Source of the DNA: Glaciihabitans tibetensis
GTDB lineage: Bacteria; Actinomycetota; Actinomycetes; Actinomycetales; Microbacteriaceae
Length of the DNA stretch: 64,000 bases
Assembly (NCBI RefSeq): GCF_003003265.1
Contig: NZ_PVTL01000006.1
Coordinates: forward strand, 248,001-312,000
Reading direction: 5' to 3'
Shown: positions 6,918-30,095 of the stretch, piece after piece
How positions within the stretch are numbered: position 1 is the stretch's first letter
Layout of the letters: the number at the start of each line of letters is the position of its first letter
The notes under the pieces: generated by a model
Database searches by the model: none
What the model was told of the DNA's origin: nothing
Seen by the model: only the letters and a program-made list of their open reading frames with translations
Translations under genes and position numbers: made by a program

Positions 6918-7961
6918 ATGCCTACCGTCACCGCATACGCAGCCACATCCGCCACAGAGCCTCTCGTCAAGACCACCATCGAACGTCGCGAAGTCGGCGC
7001 GAAAGACGTACTGATCGAGATCAAGTACTCCGGCATCTGCCACTCCGACATCCACACCGTTCGCGGCGAGTGGGGAGACATCCAGTACCCGCAGGTCGTC
7101 GGCCACGAGATCGTCGGCTTCGTCACCGAGGTCGGATCCGACGTCACCCTGCACAACGTCGGCGACCGCGTGGGCGTCGGCTGTATGGTCAACTCCTGCC
7201 GCGAGTGTGAGAACTGCCTCGCCGGAATGCAGAACTACTGCCTCAAGGGCAACACCGGCACCTACGCGTCGGTCGACCTCGACGGCACCATCACCCAGGG
7301 CGGCTACTCGACCCACGTTGTTGTGGTCGAAGACTTCGTGCTGAAGGTGCCCGAGTCGATCCCGTTCGAGAAGGCCGCGCCCCTGCTCTGCGCCGGCATC
7401 ACCACGTACTCGCCGCTCGCGCACTGGAACGCCGGACCCGGCAAGAAGGTCGCGGTGGTCGGCATGGGCGGCCTTGGTCACATGGCCGTGAAGATCGCGC
7501 ACGCCATGGGCGCTGACGTCACCGTGCTGTCGCAGTCGCTCAGCAAGCAGGAGGACGGACTGCGTCTCGGCGCGGACCACTACTACGCCACGAGCGACCC
7601 GGCCACGTTCGAGGCACTCGGCAACAGCTTCGACCTCATGATCAACACGGTCAGTGCTCCCGTCGACCTCCAGTCGTACCTGTCGCTGCTCCGGCTCGAC
7701 GGCACGATGGTCAACGTCGGCGCTCCCGCCCAGCCCCTCCCGGTCTCGGTGTTCGGGCTGATGGCCAACCGTCGCTCCTTCGCTGCGTCCGGAATCGGCA
7801 GCATCGGCGAGACCCAGGAAATGCTGGACTTCTGCGCGGAGCACGGCATTGCGCCGGAGACCGAGCTCGTCGCGGCTGACTACATCAACGAGGCCTACGA
7901 GCGCGTGCTCGCCTCGGACGTGCGCTACCGCTTCGTCATCGACGTCGCCACGATGGCGTAA
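6918..7961 (+). CDS. Zinc-dependent NAD(P) alcohol dehydrogenase (cinnamyl alcohol dehydrogenase / YahK type)
   Basis: A 347-residue medium-chain dehydrogenase. Catalytic zinc ligands are Cys41 (GICHSDIH), His63-Glu64 (VGHEIVG) and the Cys of PLLCAG. The structural zinc site is intact: Cys94, Cys97, Cys100 and Cys108. The Rossmann motif is [13 protein letters not shown]. The family reduces aldehydes with NADPH or oxidises primary alcohols, but the substrate cannot be read from sequence. Monocistronic, with a repeat beginning exactly at its stop codon. Compare the second alcohol dehydrogenase at 18.9 kb, which lacks the structural zinc cysteines. Confidence 0.93.
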
Positions 7962-8027
7962 CTGCGTAACTGCGTAACTGCGCAACTGCGTAACTGCGTA
8001 ACCGCAGGACTGCGTAGCTGTGTGACC
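7956..8027. repeat. Octamer tandem array GCGTAACT starting at the stop codon
   Basis: About nine consecutive 8-bp units begin in the last sense codon of the dehydrogenase gene and contain its TAA. The first three are perfect and later ones decay. The period is not a multiple of three, so copies cannot extend the protein in frame. Confidence 0.9.
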
Positions 8028-8171
8028 GCTCGGGGAGCCCCTGCGCGGTTCAGCTTCGGCTCCGCGTAGCTCGCGGCCCCCGAAATCGCCTGGCGGCACC
8101 GGACATATCCGGTGCCGCCAGCGGTTAAAGGGGGCCGTGAGGGCGGTGGATGCCGGTGGGACGGGGCCGCG

Positions 8172-8303
8172 GCGGTGGGAAAGCGCTCGCGGCGGTAGAA
8201 AACCACTCGCCGCGGTAGTTCCACGACTGTGGGCGGGTTGCCCGCGGTAGAAAGATACTCGCCGCGGTAGAAACAACTACCGCATCGAGTAGGTTTCTAC
8301 CGC
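8172..8303. repeat. GCGGTAGAAAC repeat element with nested hairpin
   Basis: Five 20-bp-phased copies of a GCGGTAGAAA-type unit (consensus GCGGTAGAAAACCACTCGCC) fill the spacer between convergent genes. The last two copies plus inverted copies form a hairpin: outer arms GCGGTAGAAA and TTTCTACCGC (8244-8253, 8294-8303), inner arms GCGGTAG and CTACCGC around AAACAA. The rest of the 7962-8342 gap holds the octamer array and no convincing gene. Confidence 0.85.
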
Positions 8304-8342
8304 TCCGGGTCGATTCGGAGACGTATCGGTACCGGCGAAGTA

Positions 8343-9992
8343 TCAGTACCCGGAGAAGTAGTCCGACTTCACCCGCCGCACACCCGCTCGGCGTAGTGCC
8401 TGGCGCAGCGCGGTGACCAGCTGCGGCGGGCCGGAGACGAAGGTGTCCCGTGCGGTCGCGTCCGGCACGGCGTCCAGGAGCATCGGCCCGGTGAGAGGTC
8501 CCGCTCCGATCCAGGTCCAGCTCGCGGGCAGCTCGGTCGGCGCGGTCGGCGACACCAGCAGCACCCGGTGCTCTCCGCGTTCGAGGTGCTCCGCGTAGGC
8601 GATCTCGTCGGCGCTGCTGCTCGAATACACGAGCACGACATCACGCTTTTGTCCGGTGACCTCGAGGTGCTCGAGCTGGCTGATGAACGGTGTGATCCCG
8701 ATGCCGCCCGCGACGAGCAGGAGCGGTCGCGCCTGGTCGCGGGGCAGAACGAAGTCGCCCCCGATGGATGTCGCCGCCACAGTTTCACCCGGATTCAGCT
8801 CCAGCAGCGCGCGTTTGAACGAGCTCGACACCTCGGGTACGCGCAGCCCGAACCGCACAACTCCGGCCGCGCCCGTAGTGGCAGGTGCAGCCGCCCCACC
8901 AGTAACCCCACCAGCAACCCCACCAGTTGCCGTACCCGCAGCCGACCCGCTCCCGACCCCTGGGGCCGACGCGATGCTGAACACCCGGCGCAGCCCGCGT
9001 GGGTCGCGGTTCTTGTGCGGCAGCGTCAGTTCCATGTACTGACCGGGCAGAAACGACAGCCTGCGGTGCGGCTCGAACTCGAACTCCCAGCTGGTGGGGG
9101 TGAGCTGGGTGCGCCCACGGAAGGTGAGACGGATGCCGCGCCGCTGACCCACCGCGAACGCGAACAGGTTGCCCACCACGAGGGCAAGCTCGGGGGAGTT
9201 GTACAACGGACCGACCGAGAACGGCACCGCCAGGAGAACCGCGACGATGGCGGCGAGCACGAGCTGCTGCCAGCGACGCGGGGGCAGCGTCAGCGGTTCG
9301 CTGAGCATAAATCCGGCGAGGAACACGATCGGGTACGACGTGAATGCGGTGCCGATCGAGCCGAGCGTCACGGTAATGAGCACCGCGGCAAGGGCGATGA
9401 ACCCGAGCCCCATGGTCAGCCGGTGGGTGCGGTACAGGATCAGCAGGGTGGCGATTGCGGTGAACGGCAGCATCCACGGCGTCGCGATCCACCAGGCGGC
9501 GAAGTTCAGCTGGAGCAGTCCGACTATCAAGGCCCCGATGGCTGCGGGGTTGAAGATGTGCCGGCGGCGGATGGCGAGCAGGTACTTCGACGCCGACGCG
9601 ATGAGTGCGGCCAGCGCGATGGTGGCCAGCTCCGCGACATCCGTTGTCGGACGAAAAAGGAACAGCAGCAGCAGGCCCGTGATGAGCGACGACTCGACGT
9701 GGGCCCTCGTGCGGAACACCGCCGCAAACAGAATGCTCGTCAGGGAGGTGGCGCCCACCGCGACGACCCCGCTGAGAGCGATCTCCGCCGGAGTGTAGAA
9801 GATGAGCCCGGCCAGCGACAGCACGATGGCGATCGCGGCGAGGACGATCAGGCTGATCACCACGAGCCGGTACATCGTCACCCTGCCGGTCACCCGGTCG
9901 AGTGTCATCTTCAGCCTGAGCGGCACGGAAGTGTCCCGGGCGGCCGGTGGCACGGAGCTCGGAGCAGCGCTGGCTGCAGAAGCGTTGGTCAT
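8343..9992 (-). CDS. Membrane flavin electron-transfer protein: RnfD/NqrB-like domain fused to ferredoxin-NAD(P)+ reductase domain
   Basis: A 549-residue protein. Residues ~40-290 hold about ten hydrophobic helices resembling the RnfD/NqrB membrane subunit. Residues ~295-549 are a ferredoxin-NADP reductase module, with FAD-binding LPGQYMEL and RRVFSIA, NAD-binding VAGGIGITPFISQLEHL, and the C-terminal KSDYFSGY. A Gly/Thr/Ala-rich tandem insert splits the flavin domain at the loop after the FAD motif. It probably moves electrons from cytoplasmic NAD(P)H through the membrane to the FMN-bearing lipoprotein of the same operon. The start overlaps apbE by 4 nt. Function of the fusion is inferred from domains and context. 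Confidence 0.85.
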   Translation of the reverse strand: MTNASAASAAPSSVPPAARDTSVPLRLKMTLDRVTGRVTMYRLVVISLIVLAAIAIVLSLAGLIFYTPAEIALSGVVAVGATSLTSILFAAVFRTRAHVESSLITGLLLLFLFRPTTDVAELATIALAALIASASKYLLAIRRRHIFNPAAIGALIVGLLQLNFAAWWIATPWMLPFTAIATLLILYRTHRLTMGLGFIALAAVLITVTLGSIGTAFTSYPIVFLAGFMLSEPLTLPPRRWQQLVLAAIVAVLLAVPFSVGPLYNSPELALVVGNLFAFAVGQRRGIRLTFRGRTQLTPTSWEFEFEPHRRLSFLPGQYMELTLPHKNRDPRGLRRVFSIASAPGVGSGSAAGTATGGVAGGVTGGAAAPATTGAAGVVRFGLRVPEVSSSFKRALLELNPGETVAATSIGGDFVLPRDQARPLLLVAGGIGITPFISQLEHLEVTGQKRDVVLVYSSSSADEIAYAEHLERGEHRVLLVSPTAPTELPASWTWIGAGPLTGPMLLDAVPDATARDTFVSGPPQLVTALRQALRRAGVRRVKSDYFSGY

Positions 9993-10975
9993 GTAAACAT
10001 CTCCCCTTGGATGTCGCGCGAATACTCCACCGAACCATCGGCGAGCATCCGGACGTACTGAAAGTCAAAGTCGAACGCGGCGGCACCACGGAAAAACAGC
10101 CCGGTCGCCAGCCCATCGGCGTGCATCGTGTGCAGGGCGCTGCGGTGTTGAGTGGGCAGGGTGCCGGCGTGCATTGTGGGCTGGGTGGTTGTAGGCAGGG
10201 TGGTTGTGGGCAGGGTGGCGGATGCCGCGGGGCCCGGCCCACCGGCCGCGGGCACGACCGCCCAGGTAGCGATCACCCGGGTGGTCGGCTCGCCGGTCAG
10301 CGCGTCGAGCACGTGGTGCAGGCCCGAGCCCCACGCCCGGCGGTTGGACGCCGAGGCGCAGAGCGCGGCGTTGCTCAGGGTGTACACACCGATCGCTTTT
10401 GTCGGGTCACGCGGATGCTCGAGCGCGACGCGCAGCGGCGAGCTGCCGCGGTGCACCAGGTCGCCGCTCGCGTCGACCACATATTCGTCCACGCCTGCCT
10501 CGGTGAGGATGGCGGCCACCAGGTCGACCAGATACCCCTTGCCGGCGGCCCCGACATCCAGCAGCACCGGACGCACGGTGGTGAGTCGCTCGCCGTCCCA
10601 CGCCACCGCGTTGTCCCAGGAGGGAACACGCACCGACTCGGGATTCGGCGTGAGCGAGTAGCTGCGGTCGTAGCCGAGATTCTCCAGTCGCGCGCCGACC
10701 AGTGGACTGACCGCGCCGCCCGTGGCCTCGTAGAGGCTCCGATACAGGGCGAACAGCGGGGGAGCGTCGGGCGGGAACTCCCAGACACCGGGCTCGCGGT
10801 TGATGCGGCTGACAAGCGAGTCCGTGCGGAAGCGGGAGTAGGTGCGATCGAAGCTCTCGATTCGCTCCGCGATCGCCGCGACGACCTCAGGCGGGAGCGG
10901 TTCCGGCGTGTCAATGCGCCAGGGCGCGCCGATGGCGTCGAACCGGTGCTGCGCGTGCGGGGTGCTGGTGCGCAT
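9989..10975 (-). CDS. apbE: FAD:protein FMN transferase (ApbE family)
   Basis: A 328-residue ApbE-type enzyme, which attaches FMN from FAD to a Thr/Ser of partner proteins. Recognisable blocks are FDRTYSRFRTDSLVSRIN, the DVGAAGKGYLVD motif (family: DxGxxAKGYxxD), VVDASGDL and SNAALCASASNRRAW. It lies between the FMN-binding lipoprotein and the membrane reductase, which identifies its probable target. The segment between VPAAGG and the C-terminal domain carries an unconserved tandem Pro-Thr-Thr / Met-His-Ala insert. No clear signal peptide is visible, so on which side of the membrane it works is unclear. Confidence 0.9.
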   Translation of the reverse strand: MRTSTPHAQHRFDAIGAPWRIDTPEPLPPEVVAAIAERIESFDRTYSRFRTDSLVSRINREPGVWEFPPDAPPLFALYRSLYEATGGAVSPLVGARLENLGYDRSYSLTPNPESVRVPSWDNAVAWDGERLTTVRPVLLDVGAAGKGYLVDLVAAILTEAGVDEYVVDASGDLVHRGSSPLRVALEHPRDPTKAIGVYTLSNAALCASASNRRAWGSGLHHVLDALTGEPTTRVIATWAVVPAAGGPGPAASATLPTTTLPTTTQPTMHAGTLPTQHRSALHTMHADGLATGLFFRGAAAFDFDFQYVRMLADGSVEYSRDIQGEMFT

Positions 10976-10988
10976 GGGTGCCGACGCT

Positions 10989-11519
10989 TTAGGCGGCGGC
11001 TTCGGCTTTGATGGTCTCGACGGCTTCGTTGAAGCCGCCGCTGGTCAGTGAGGACCCAGCCACACGGTCGACATCGAGGTCGTCGATGTTCTCGCCGACC
11101 ACCACATCGGCGATGCCCTCGGCGAAGTCGGACTGGTAGCGCACCGAGTTGCCGCTGGTGGCGTTCGGCGTGACGGTGACCGCGGTGACGGTGTCTCCCT
11201 CGAGCGTGAGCTCAACGGAGATGCTCTCCGATCCGCCGGGGGAGGTGTACTCGCCCTCGGCGCTGTATGTGCCGTCGGCGTAGCTGCCGGCCTCGGTATC
11301 GGTGCCATCGTCGGAACCTGAGTCGGTGCCGGCGTCTGTCGAGGTGTCGGAGCCGGTCGAGCTCTCCGCGGGCGCGCTCGAGGAACTCGAGTCATCCGCG
11401 CCGGAGCCGGTGTCGGTGGAGGCGGTGCTGTCGTCGGCGGCGCAGCCCGCGAGGCTCCCGATGAGCGAGAGGCCAGCGAGGGCACCAAAGGTATAACGCG
11501 TGCGAAGGGAGATTGGCAT
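10989..11519 (-). CDS. FMN-binding-domain lipoprotein
   Basis: A 176-residue secreted lipoprotein. The signal peptide ends in the lipobox LAGC (lipidated Cys near residue 27). A Ser/Thr/Asp-rich linker spans ~30-85, and the C-terminal ~90 residues are an FMN_bind domain like RnfG/NqrC. The GSSLTSGGF segment is the likely covalent FMN site, with its Thr as acceptor. First gene of a three-gene operon with apbE (13-nt gap) and the RnfD-FNR fusion. A TAAAAT -10-like box and an AGAGGA SD precede the ATG. Expected to be an extracytoplasmic electron carrier. Confidence 0.88.
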   Translation of the reverse strand: MPISLRTRYTFGALAGLSLIGSLAGCAADDSTASTDTGSGADDSSSSSAPAESSTGSDTSTDAGTDSGSDDGTDTEAGSYADGTYSAEGEYTSPGGSESISVELTLEGDTVTAVTVTPNATSGNSVRYQSDFAEGIADVVVGENIDDLDVDRVAGSSLTSGGFNEAVETIKAEAAA

Positions 11520-11646
11520 GGAAATCCTCTGTTTGTTGTTGCCGATTTTAGTTGTCGGTACAAGAAATAAGGAAACACCCCTTTGCTATGGAAATGCCTA
11601 GAGTCCGCTGCCTTTCCGTCCTGCTGGCCCTACGACCGGCCGTGCA

Positions 11647-28610: not shown

Positions 28611-28713
28611 TGTGTGCGGTCACAGTTCTATCACAGCTTAGTTGAACTGTCTCTAACGGGTATCCCTTCGTTTGACAGCGAGCAGATGATGTGAGTAACT
28701 GGAACCGCTCACA
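28611..28713. promoter_or_regulatory. Divergent galactan promoter with LacI-type operator candidates
   Basis: The 204-bp spacer between the GH42 gene and the binding-protein gene holds TGTGTGCGGTCACA (28611-28624, CG-centred imperfect palindrome, 22 bp before the GH42 start) and TGTGAG...CTCACA (28690-28695 and 28708-28713). CG-centred TGTG/CACA dyads are typical of LacI-family sites, and a LacI gene ends the importer operon. Confidence 0.45.
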
Positions 28714-28793: not shown

Positions 28794-30095
28794 ATGCACC
28801 GAATTTTTCGCTCAAGCGCCATCGCGGCCGTAGCCGCCGCCGCGCTTCTCACCACGGGTTGCTCTGCGGGATCCGGCGGTGACTCCGGTCCCGTTGAGCT
28901 GAGCTACTGGGCCTGGGCCCCGAACCTCGAGCAGGTCGTCGAGATCTGGAACGAGCAGAACCCCGACATCCAGGTGACGGTCAACAAGCAGGACGGTGGC
29001 GACCCCGCCATCACCAAGCTGCTCACAGCGATCAAAGCCGGAAGCGGCGCCCCGGACATGATCCAGGCCGAGTACCAGAAGATCGCGACACTCGTCGGGT
29101 CGGACGCGCTCGCGGACCTCTCGGATCAGGGTGCGGGCGACCTCGAAGACGTCTTCTCCGAGGGCGACTGGGACCAGGTCACCCTTGGCGGCGACGCGAT
29201 CTACGCGATCCCGCAGGACACCGCTCCCATGATGTTCTTTTACCGCGCCGACATTCTCGACTCGCTCGGCCTGACCGCCCCCACGACGTGGGAAGAGTAC
29301 GCGGAGCTCGCTCGCGCTGTTCACACGGCAAACCCCGACCAGCTCCTCGGCACCTTCTCCGCGAACGACGCGGGTTGGTTCACCGGCCTTGCACAGCAGG
29401 CTGACGCCGAGTGGTGGGGAATCGACGGCGAGGCCTGGACGGTTGGCGTCGACGAAGAGCCCACTCAGAAGGTCGCCGAGTACTGGGGCGGACTCGTCGA
29501 GGAGGGTGTCATCGGCAACCAGCCCATGTACACGCCCGAGTGGAACGCCGGCCTGAACGATGGCTCGCAGGTCGGATGGCTCAGTGCCGTCTGGGCTCCG
29601 GGAGTTCTGAGCGGTAACGCACCGGACACGGCTGGCCTCTGGGAGGCAGCACCGATGCCGCAGTGGGATGCCGACGAACCGGCCACCGGAAACTGGGGTG
29701 GCTCGACCACGGCAGTGACCACGCAGTCCGAGCACCCGGAAGAAGCCATGGAGTTCATCACCTGGCTGAACACCGACCCCGAGGCCGTCACCGCCCTCGC
29801 CGATGTTTCCGGTGTGTACCCGGCAGCGCAGGAGGCTGCAGCCGAGGCCCTCACCACCGCGCCGGAGTTCTTCTCCAACCAGACCGACTTCTACGACGTC
29901 GTCGCCGAAGTTGCGGAGACCGCGAATCCCTTCACCTACGGACCCAACGTGAACGTCGCCTACAGCGCGTACAACGACGAGTTCGCCAAGGCCGCGGACG
30001 CCAAGACGCAGGCTGCGTTCATCGAAGCGGTCACGCAGATGCAGAAGATTACGATTGACGACCTGAAGAGCGCTGGCTTCACCGTCAAGGAGTAG
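28794..30095 (+). CDS. Sugar ABC transporter, extracellular solute-binding lipoprotein
   Basis: A 433-residue family 1 solute-binding protein. The signal peptide ends in a lipobox (LTTGC, lipidated Cys near residue 24). The mature part begins VELSYWAWAPNLEQVVEIWNEQNP; further blocks are KLLTAIKAGSGAPDMIQAEYQ and GNWGGSTTAVTTQSEHPEEAMEFITWL. A strong AAGGAGG SD precedes the ATG. With two permeases and a LacI regulator downstream and GH42/GH53 divergent, it most likely captures galacto-oligosaccharides. No ATPase gene is present, as in other actinobacterial CUT1 systems that share one multi-sugar ATPase. Confidence 0.93.
   Translation: MHRIFRSSAIAAVAAAALLTTGCSAGSGGDSGPVELSYWAWAPNLEQVVEIWNEQNPDIQVTVNKQDGGDPAITKLLTAIKAGSGAPDMIQAEYQKIATLVGSDALADLSDQGAGDLEDVFSEGDWDQVTLGGDAIYAIPQDTAPMMFFYRADILDSLGLTAPTTWEEYAELARAVHTANPDQLLGTFSANDAGWFTGLAQQADAEWWGIDGEAWTVGVDEEPTQKVAEYWGGLVEEGVIGNQPMYTPEWNAGLNDGSQVGWLSAVWAPGVLSGNAPDTAGLWEAAPMPQWDADEPATGNWGGSTTAVTTQSEHPEEAMEFITWLNTDPEAVTALADVSGVYPAAQEAAAEALTTAPEFFSNQTDFYDVVAEVAETANPFTYGPNVNVAYSAYNDEFAKAADAKTQAAFIEAVTQMQKITIDDLKSAGFTVKE

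Follow-up and report, generated by a model that had tools for sequence, protein, structure and literature searches.

The 64,000-nucleotide stretch of the Glaciihabitans tibetensis genome analyzed here (contig NZ_PVTL01000006.1, positions 248,001 to 312,000; referred to below as the window) carries on its minus strand, at window positions 8343-11519, an operon that is likely to encode an actinobacterial 'NQR/RNF-like' relay from NAD(P)H to an exported flavin carrier, with a cytosolic ApbE and a PhoP-type control. Its three genes encode, in this order, a lipoprotein with a domain of the FMN_bind family (FMN, flavin mononucleotide), ApbE, and a fusion of an RnfD-like membrane domain with an NAD(P)H:FAD reductase (FAD, flavin adenine dinucleotide). 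The apbE gene starts 13 nt past the stop of the lipoprotein gene, and its own stop overlaps the start of the fusion gene by 4 nt, so that by layout the three genes form one transcription unit. A sequence-only reading of this DNA had already placed the triad in one operon, which is borne out with exact gene boundaries; the class was published in 2021 (PMC8238504), and the operon is a member of it and not of a new kind. The features discussed below are as follows:

10989-11519, minus strand: FMN_bind lipoprotein of 176 residues, putative exported electron carrier (PF04205; fold model m6a9fce1ead09, with weak structure matches)
11442-11444, minus strand: lipobox Cys26 (LAGC), predicted lipidation site, invariant in 40/40 alignment rows
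11049-11051, minus strand: Ser157, predicted covalent FMN acceptor (VAG-S-S157-LTS), invariant in 40/40, aligned with Thr72 of 8p2a
11043-11045, minus strand: Thr159, predicted flavin-ring contact, invariant in 40/40, aligned with Thr74 of 8p2a
9989-10975, minus strand: ApbE (FAD:protein FMN transferase), 328 residues, without a signal peptide as judged from its N-terminus and start codons (PF02424, 1.3e-34)
8343-9992, minus strand: RnfD/NqrB-like membrane domain fused to an NAD(P)H:FAD reductase, 549 residues (PF00175; RnfD and NqrF structure matches)
9144-9878, minus strand: RnfD-fold membrane domain, residues 39-283, with a gap opposite the covalent-flavin loop of RsxD (8ahx_D, Z 23.4, 228 residues)
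8346-9143, minus strand: FNR/NqrF-like FAD- and NAD(P)H-binding domain, residues 284-549 (PF00175; 4eh1_A, Z 26.5; 8acw_F, Z 25.0)
11579-11606, minus strand: degenerate PhoP-type direct repeat, -87 to -60 from the lipoprotein start (12.1 bits with a position weight matrix)

Meheust 2021 defined NQR/RNF-like clusters by a flavinylation gene next to a gene whose protein carries both PF03116 and PF00175; that report counts 127 clusters in 31,910 genomes, mainly of Actinobacteria and candidate phyla, and proposes that electrons move one way, from NAD(P)H outwards (PMC8238504). A 2024 follow-up describes a modelled two-subunit complex in which, according to the sections concerned, the covalent-flavin Thr of NqrB/RnfD is not kept (PMC10979944/PMC11334425). 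The present operon shares with the class, so far as these sources describe it, the FMN_bind carrier, the NqrB/RnfD-like domain fused to a PF00175 reductase, the occurrence in Actinobacteria and candidate phyla, the proposed one-way path and a membrane domain without the covalent-flavin site. In the relay that we envisage, the cytosolic reductase half of the fusion would pass electrons from NAD(P)H to its FAD; they would cross the membrane via the RnfD-fold half and a non-covalent flavin, and would then reach FMN on Ser157 of the lipoprotein at the outer face, from where they would be passed to an acceptor outside. We infer the direction, from NAD(P)H to the exterior, from the domain order. The sequence-only reading had likewise drawn a one-way chain to an exported FMN carrier, which our results support and which is the path that Meheust 2021 proposed for the class.

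A survey of 249 genomes of the family (strong matches set at E ≤1e-50 for the fusion and E ≤1e-28 for the carrier; lists compared by hand, with 61 and 12 weaker rows dropped) found the fusion in 98 genomes and the carrier in 98, and the two sets are identical. In 41 loci studied in detail (40 homologues and the window, mostly one per genus), the fusion is always a single open reading frame, the carrier is present in 40 (the contig ends in L012), ApbE is present in 40 (there is none in L065), and the gene order is kept wherever all three genes are present. Given these counts, the triad is not a chance association; its search in related genomes, suggested together with the sequence-only reading, was thus successful. 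Named relatives belong to Microbacterium, Arthrobacter, Pseudolysinimonas, Agreia, Leifsonia, Nakamurella, Cellulomonas, Nocardioides and Aeromicrobium; more remote relatives come from Saccharibacteria, Uhrbacteria and Dictyobacter. Of 346 genomes sampled from the phylum, only 28 reach E 1e-30; judged by their query ranges, 7 of these matches span the whole fusion (3 from the same family, own genome included) and 21 cover the reductase half only. Genomes of another family of the phylum (L083-L097) encode a stand-alone relative of the reductase half, with matches confined to that part of the profile. Among same-genus genomes, one (L034) has the carrier gene and apbE ~2.4 kb apart, and two (G052 and G122) have an additional, second carrier-like gene. 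A contig filed as Stenotrophomonas maltophilia (L182) carries a Microbacterium-like operon and is probably a contamination.

The C-terminal domain of the fusion matches PF00175 (2.7e-06; 28.4 bits with a cut-off of 22) and would lie on the cytosolic side. On its own, the window fusion has no match to PF03116 (NqrB/RnfD); this model is matched by 15 of the 40 aligned fusions (best 1.2e-08) and misses the other 25, the window fusion among them. Its assignment to NqrB/RnfD is therefore founded on homology and on the RnfD fold rather than on the published model, and the published cluster count is likely to be low for this branch. The predicted structure (mean predicted local distance difference test score 89.5) superposes in its membrane half on Azotobacter RnfD (8ahx_D) at 2.5 Å, and its C-terminal half on NqrF (8acw_F) and further NAD(P)H:flavin reductases. 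With the whole fusion as a Foldseek query, only reductases or whole flavoproteins appeared among the matches listed, and RnfD surfaced in a second structure comparison. A helix topology unlike that of RnfD had been set beforehand as a finding that would overturn the sequence-only reading; the predicted topology is RnfD-like, and the 549-residue fusion proposed there is confirmed in both halves. In the alignment with E. coli RsxD, the SQATPL loop, which we take to carry the covalent-flavin Thr, lies opposite a gap in the fusion family. A flavin in the RnfD-fold half would therefore be non-covalent, a detail in which the sequence-only model has to be corrected. The GAT at fusion residues 80-82 was rejected as a flavin site, as it is located within a predicted helix and lacks conservation. 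A triple fusion of ApbE, RnfD-like domain and reductase in L056 is one open frame, but its joining stretch is unlike the N-terminus of the relatives, and we take it as a frameshift or sequence error. Residues 349-374 form a low-confidence insert, on either side of which the matches of relatives mostly end. This insert (window 8871-8948) and a second one in ApbE (window 10127-10243, residues ~245-283) are in-frame low-complexity insertions absent in nearly all aligned relatives.

In the lipoprotein, the lipobox segment is followed by a linker rich in Ser and Thr and, starting near residue 80, by an FMN_bind domain with a PF04205 score of 23.2 bits (cut-off 22). The lipobox Cys and the hydrophobic stretch preceding it are found in all 40 aligned carriers, so that the exported flavinylation-type gene of the NQR/RNF-like class is present here as well. 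The fold model has the three strands and two helices typical of the FMN_bind family, and its best solved matches are FMN_bind domains (8p2b/8p2a) and RnfG (8rb8_G), all of them weak (E 0.006-0.014). An hhalign comparison of the carrier with E. coli RsxG gave no meaningful match. A profile of the 40 carriers aligns VAGSSLTS with VSGATYTS of SaFMN3-D2 (8p2a), again weakly (E 0.02). According to the structural description of 8p2a, the residue bonded to FMN is Thr72, and Thr74 touches the flavin ring and forms a hydrogen bond to flavin N3 (PMC10339131); since Gly70, Tyr73 and Thr74 are named there as its neighbours, Thr72 is the T of SGAT. From this alignment, Ser157 is expected to be the covalent FMN acceptor and Thr159 the ring contact, and the motif residues G155, S156, S157, L158 and T159 are all invariant (40/40). 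The sequence-only reading had placed FMN on the Thr of GSSLTSGGF; the motif is indeed there, but its Thr is the residue aligned with Thr74 and not with the acceptor. In the window carrier the flavinylation motif reads D-R-V-A-G-S-S instead of D-x-x-[ST]-G-A-[ST], with the Asp, the Gly and the terminal Ser kept and the other positions differing.

ApbE is itself a regular member of its family, with a profile match to solved ApbEs at 1.2e-28 and with His220, His221, Asp224, Ser208 and Asp287 invariant in 30 alignment rows, some of which may act in catalysis. What the sequence-only reading overlooked is its topology. The only possible start of the window ApbE gives MRTSTPHAQHRFDAIG, eleven residues ahead of the catalytic core, and no signal peptide was seen there when start codons, hydrophobic runs and N-termini were read by eye. 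The export signal of the ApbEs of known exported-carrier systems is thus absent from this enzyme. In the 39 loci with both genes, taking the earliest start at or after the carrier stop (30 nt tolerance), ApbE has a median of 9 residues before the core, with 7 loci having no start upstream of the core under this rule; the longest extensions (33 and 46 residues) are Ala/Pro-rich and not signal-like by eye. ApbE adjoins the fusion in 79 of 84 further loci, in 76 of which its start was usable; a hydrophobic run within the first 35 residues was found in 10 of these 76 and is part of the core itself, because the core starts within the first 10 residues. In a second cluster type (Patescibacteria, Dictyobacter), ApbE likewise begins at the catalytic core. 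Finally, 55 of the 98 triad genomes, including that of the window, have a single ApbE match, and hence no second, secreted enzyme was found in them. We also looked for a secreted ApbE elsewhere in the family: at 20 other ApbE loci, of which 19 were readable (L193 is masked), inspection by eye showed nothing clearly signal-like ahead of the core, so signal-less ApbEs may be general in these bacteria.

Three options follow: FMN is attached in the cytosol before export, ApbE leaves the cell by an unusual route, or the carrier stays unmodified. The first is the simplest, because ApbE is reported in a review to require merely a seven-residue motif. As the ApbE lacks a signal and is the sole one in 55 genomes, FMN is probably attached to the carrier in the cytosol, before its Sec export and lipidation. 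We found no publication on a signal-less ApbE paired with an exported carrier in the open-access literature that was searched. More tentatively, and with the balance tilted slightly against so broad a claim, Actinobacteria and candidate phyla might in general attach the flavin in the cytosol to the unfolded precursor, pass the FMN-bearing chain through Sec, lipidate it, and keep the relay under a PhoP-type stress regulator. If this were true, the accepted order, in which the carrier is exported first and an exported ApbE, supplied with exported FAD, then flavinylates it, would be reversed, and FAD export would not be needed.

The suggestion of a PhoP-type control comes from the region upstream of the carrier gene. 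Pairs of [TC]CA[CT]AG (one mismatch allowed in each) were searched in 100 upstream regions: pairs spaced by 11 bp occur in 31 of them (4.2 in shuffles) and pairs spaced by 22 bp in 23 (3.6 in shuffles), with other spacings and the reverse strand near background. The repeat density is 1.44 per kb upstream and 0.076 elsewhere on the same strand, a ~19-fold enrichment at group level. When position weight matrices were trained with similar sequences removed, scores above the 99th percentile were reached by 10 of 40 held-out loci when shuffles served as the reference and by 14 of 40 when real sequence did; the score of the window repeat, obtained without the window and similar sequences in the training set, is equalled by 0.5-0.7% of random 250-nt pieces. 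The 11-bp direct repeat resembles the PhoP site of Mycobacterium tuberculosis, described as a 7-bp direct repeat, TCACAGC-N4-TCACAGC (PMC4832192). No sigma-70-like promoters were found, and the open-access literature searched gave no publication on PhoP control of such operons. Transcription of the operon is probably switched by a PhoP-type response regulator that would bind these 11-bp direct repeats.

Several observations weigh against this picture of carrier and control. The FMN_bind score of the lipoprotein is barely above the cut-off, and a fold search with its model returned no match at E 0.001. Its motif deviates from the flavinylation consensus at two or three positions, with the leading Asp kept in 10 of 40 carriers (Ser in 24, Thr or Gly in 6), and a Thr-to-Ser change in this motif is reported in a review to reduce flavinylation. 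For the repeat, with the 95th percentile of shuffles as the threshold, just 20 of the 40 held-out loci passed before removal of redundancy and 17 after it, so that many loci show no clear repeat; the window's own site is degenerate; and exact two-repeat sites number 3 in this genome versus 9 in the control, i.e. they are not enriched genome-wide.

It is the position of the three exact sites, not their count, that is suggestive: each lies a short distance upstream of a correctly oriented gene, encoding a response regulator, a DUF3500 lipoprotein and, in the window, a solute-binding lipoprotein. The best solved match of this response regulator is PhoP of M. tuberculosis (3.3e-80), followed by PrrA (2.4e-59). 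In 16 of 18 named Microbacterium loci, which as loci of one genus are not independent, a gene for a PhoP-like regulator (~65-71% identical) lies within ~6 kb of the operon, and this is the case once more in L068; where inspected (L147, named by eye), a kinase gene adjoins it. As to the other two sites, the one in the window (28620-28636) is an exact PhoP-type direct repeat ~158 nt upstream of the solute-binding lipoprotein gene (28794-30095, plus strand), and the DUF3500 lipoprotein gene (L213, 199-1517, minus strand) is preceded by a perfect triple 11-bp repeat; even with one mismatch allowed, it is the sole triple repeat of this genome. Some other DUF3500 loci of the family (L242, L243) also carry a strong repeat site. 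DUF3500 was considered as a partner of the relay; by hand count, 25 of the 98 triad genomes and 20 of the 151 remaining genomes have it, and it is therefore not a required one.

The terminal acceptor was not visible to the sequence-only reading, and clustering of the open reading frames around the 41 detailed and 84 further loci gave no fourth gene common across taxa. The exceptions were regulator genes in Microbacterium, P-type ATPases of mixed kind (17 loci, mostly Microbacterium) and NRAMP genes (3 loci). The last of these bear on a possible, if doubtful, role of the same relay as an assimilatory ferric reductase that makes Fe2+ outside for uptake: in 3 of the 84 further loci (L149, L180 and L183, from two Uhrbacteria and the unclassified metagenome-assembled genome WY1), the gene directly after the fusion, in the same orientation, encodes an NRAMP metal transporter, and VIT1 occurs in 6 clusters of the published class according to Meheust 2021 (PMC8238504). 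On the other hand, the recurring neighbours of the 41 loci (most clusters were named by eye) included no recognisable metal-transport gene, and no iron-type box was recognised by eye in the upstream sequences, where the repeat found is PhoP-type. The operon could also be a variant of an ion-pumping Nqr/Rnf complex or what is left of one, as both halves of the fusion are homologous to NqrB/RnfD and NqrF; we consider this very improbable, as no further Nqr/Rnf-like gene was recognised among the same neighbours, the membrane path is single, as stated for the class in the cited text (Meheust 2021, PMC8238504), and the flavin-bearing loop is missing. The lack of any PF03116 match in the genome points the same way but weighs little, since the model misses the window fusion as well.

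The other two readings start from the topology of ApbE. If the carrier were not covalently flavinylated, binding FMN loosely or having lost it, the cytosolic ApbE would modify another protein, which would suit the non-canonical motif and the location of ApbE and the mature carrier on opposite sides of the membrane; we hold this improbable in view of the invariant G-S-S-L-T, of an ApbE that accompanies the fusion in 40 of 41 and 79 of 84 loci, and of a genome with one FMN_bind match and one ApbE match. Known exported-carrier systems have, in the accounts cited here, an exported ApbE, and the enzyme might reach the outside without a classical signal, e.g. carried by a Tat (twin-arginine translocation) partner, and work there as usual. 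This is likewise improbable: a Tat-like motif occurs in none of the 40 aligned lipoprotein signals and a twin arginine in just 4 of them, and the ApbE of the second cluster type also begins at its core.

Two repetitive elements were noted in addition. Directly past the stop of an alcohol dehydrogenase gene there is a tandem 8-bp repeat (GCGTAACT type) of ~8 decaying copies (window 7956-8035), and just downstream of the fusion (window 8164-8310) a 27-nt GCGGTAGAAA...CGCCGCGGTAG element recurs several times, in direct and in inverted orientation, and may act as a terminator or be a REP-like (repetitive extragenic palindromic) element.

The relay resembles Na+-NQR (NqrB, NqrC, NqrF) and RNF (RnfD, RnfG) in the folds of all three parts and in its predicted ApbE-type flavinylation. 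It differs from them in comprising two proteins rather than at least six, and in lacking both a second membrane path and a covalent flavin loop; no pump is expected. Extracellular electron transfer in Listeria (FmnB, PplA), as outlined in the cited text, similarly uses a Gram-positive carrier flavinylated by an ApbE-family enzyme; however, FmnB works outside and needs exported FAD (PMC9973259), whereas the present ApbE lacks an export signal and the membrane protein is RnfD-like. Within the NQR/RNF-like class, this branch mostly escapes PF03116 and is far commoner in its family (98/249) than the published number of clusters suggests. Its A-G-S-S acceptor motif, signal-less ApbE and PhoP-type repeat are not discussed in the portions of the class reports cited above. 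New for the class are the wide spread in the family together with the missed PF03116 model, probably flavinylation before export, and what looks like PhoP-type control.

As an outward electron chain, the operon is very small; it is common among Actinobacteria from soil or associated with plants, and it has probably been undercounted. The topology of its ApbE turns flavinylation before Sec export into a simple testable question, and the PhoP-type repeat offers an initial clue as to when the chain comes into use; pre-export flavinylation and PhoP-type control would be two testable additions to a known class.

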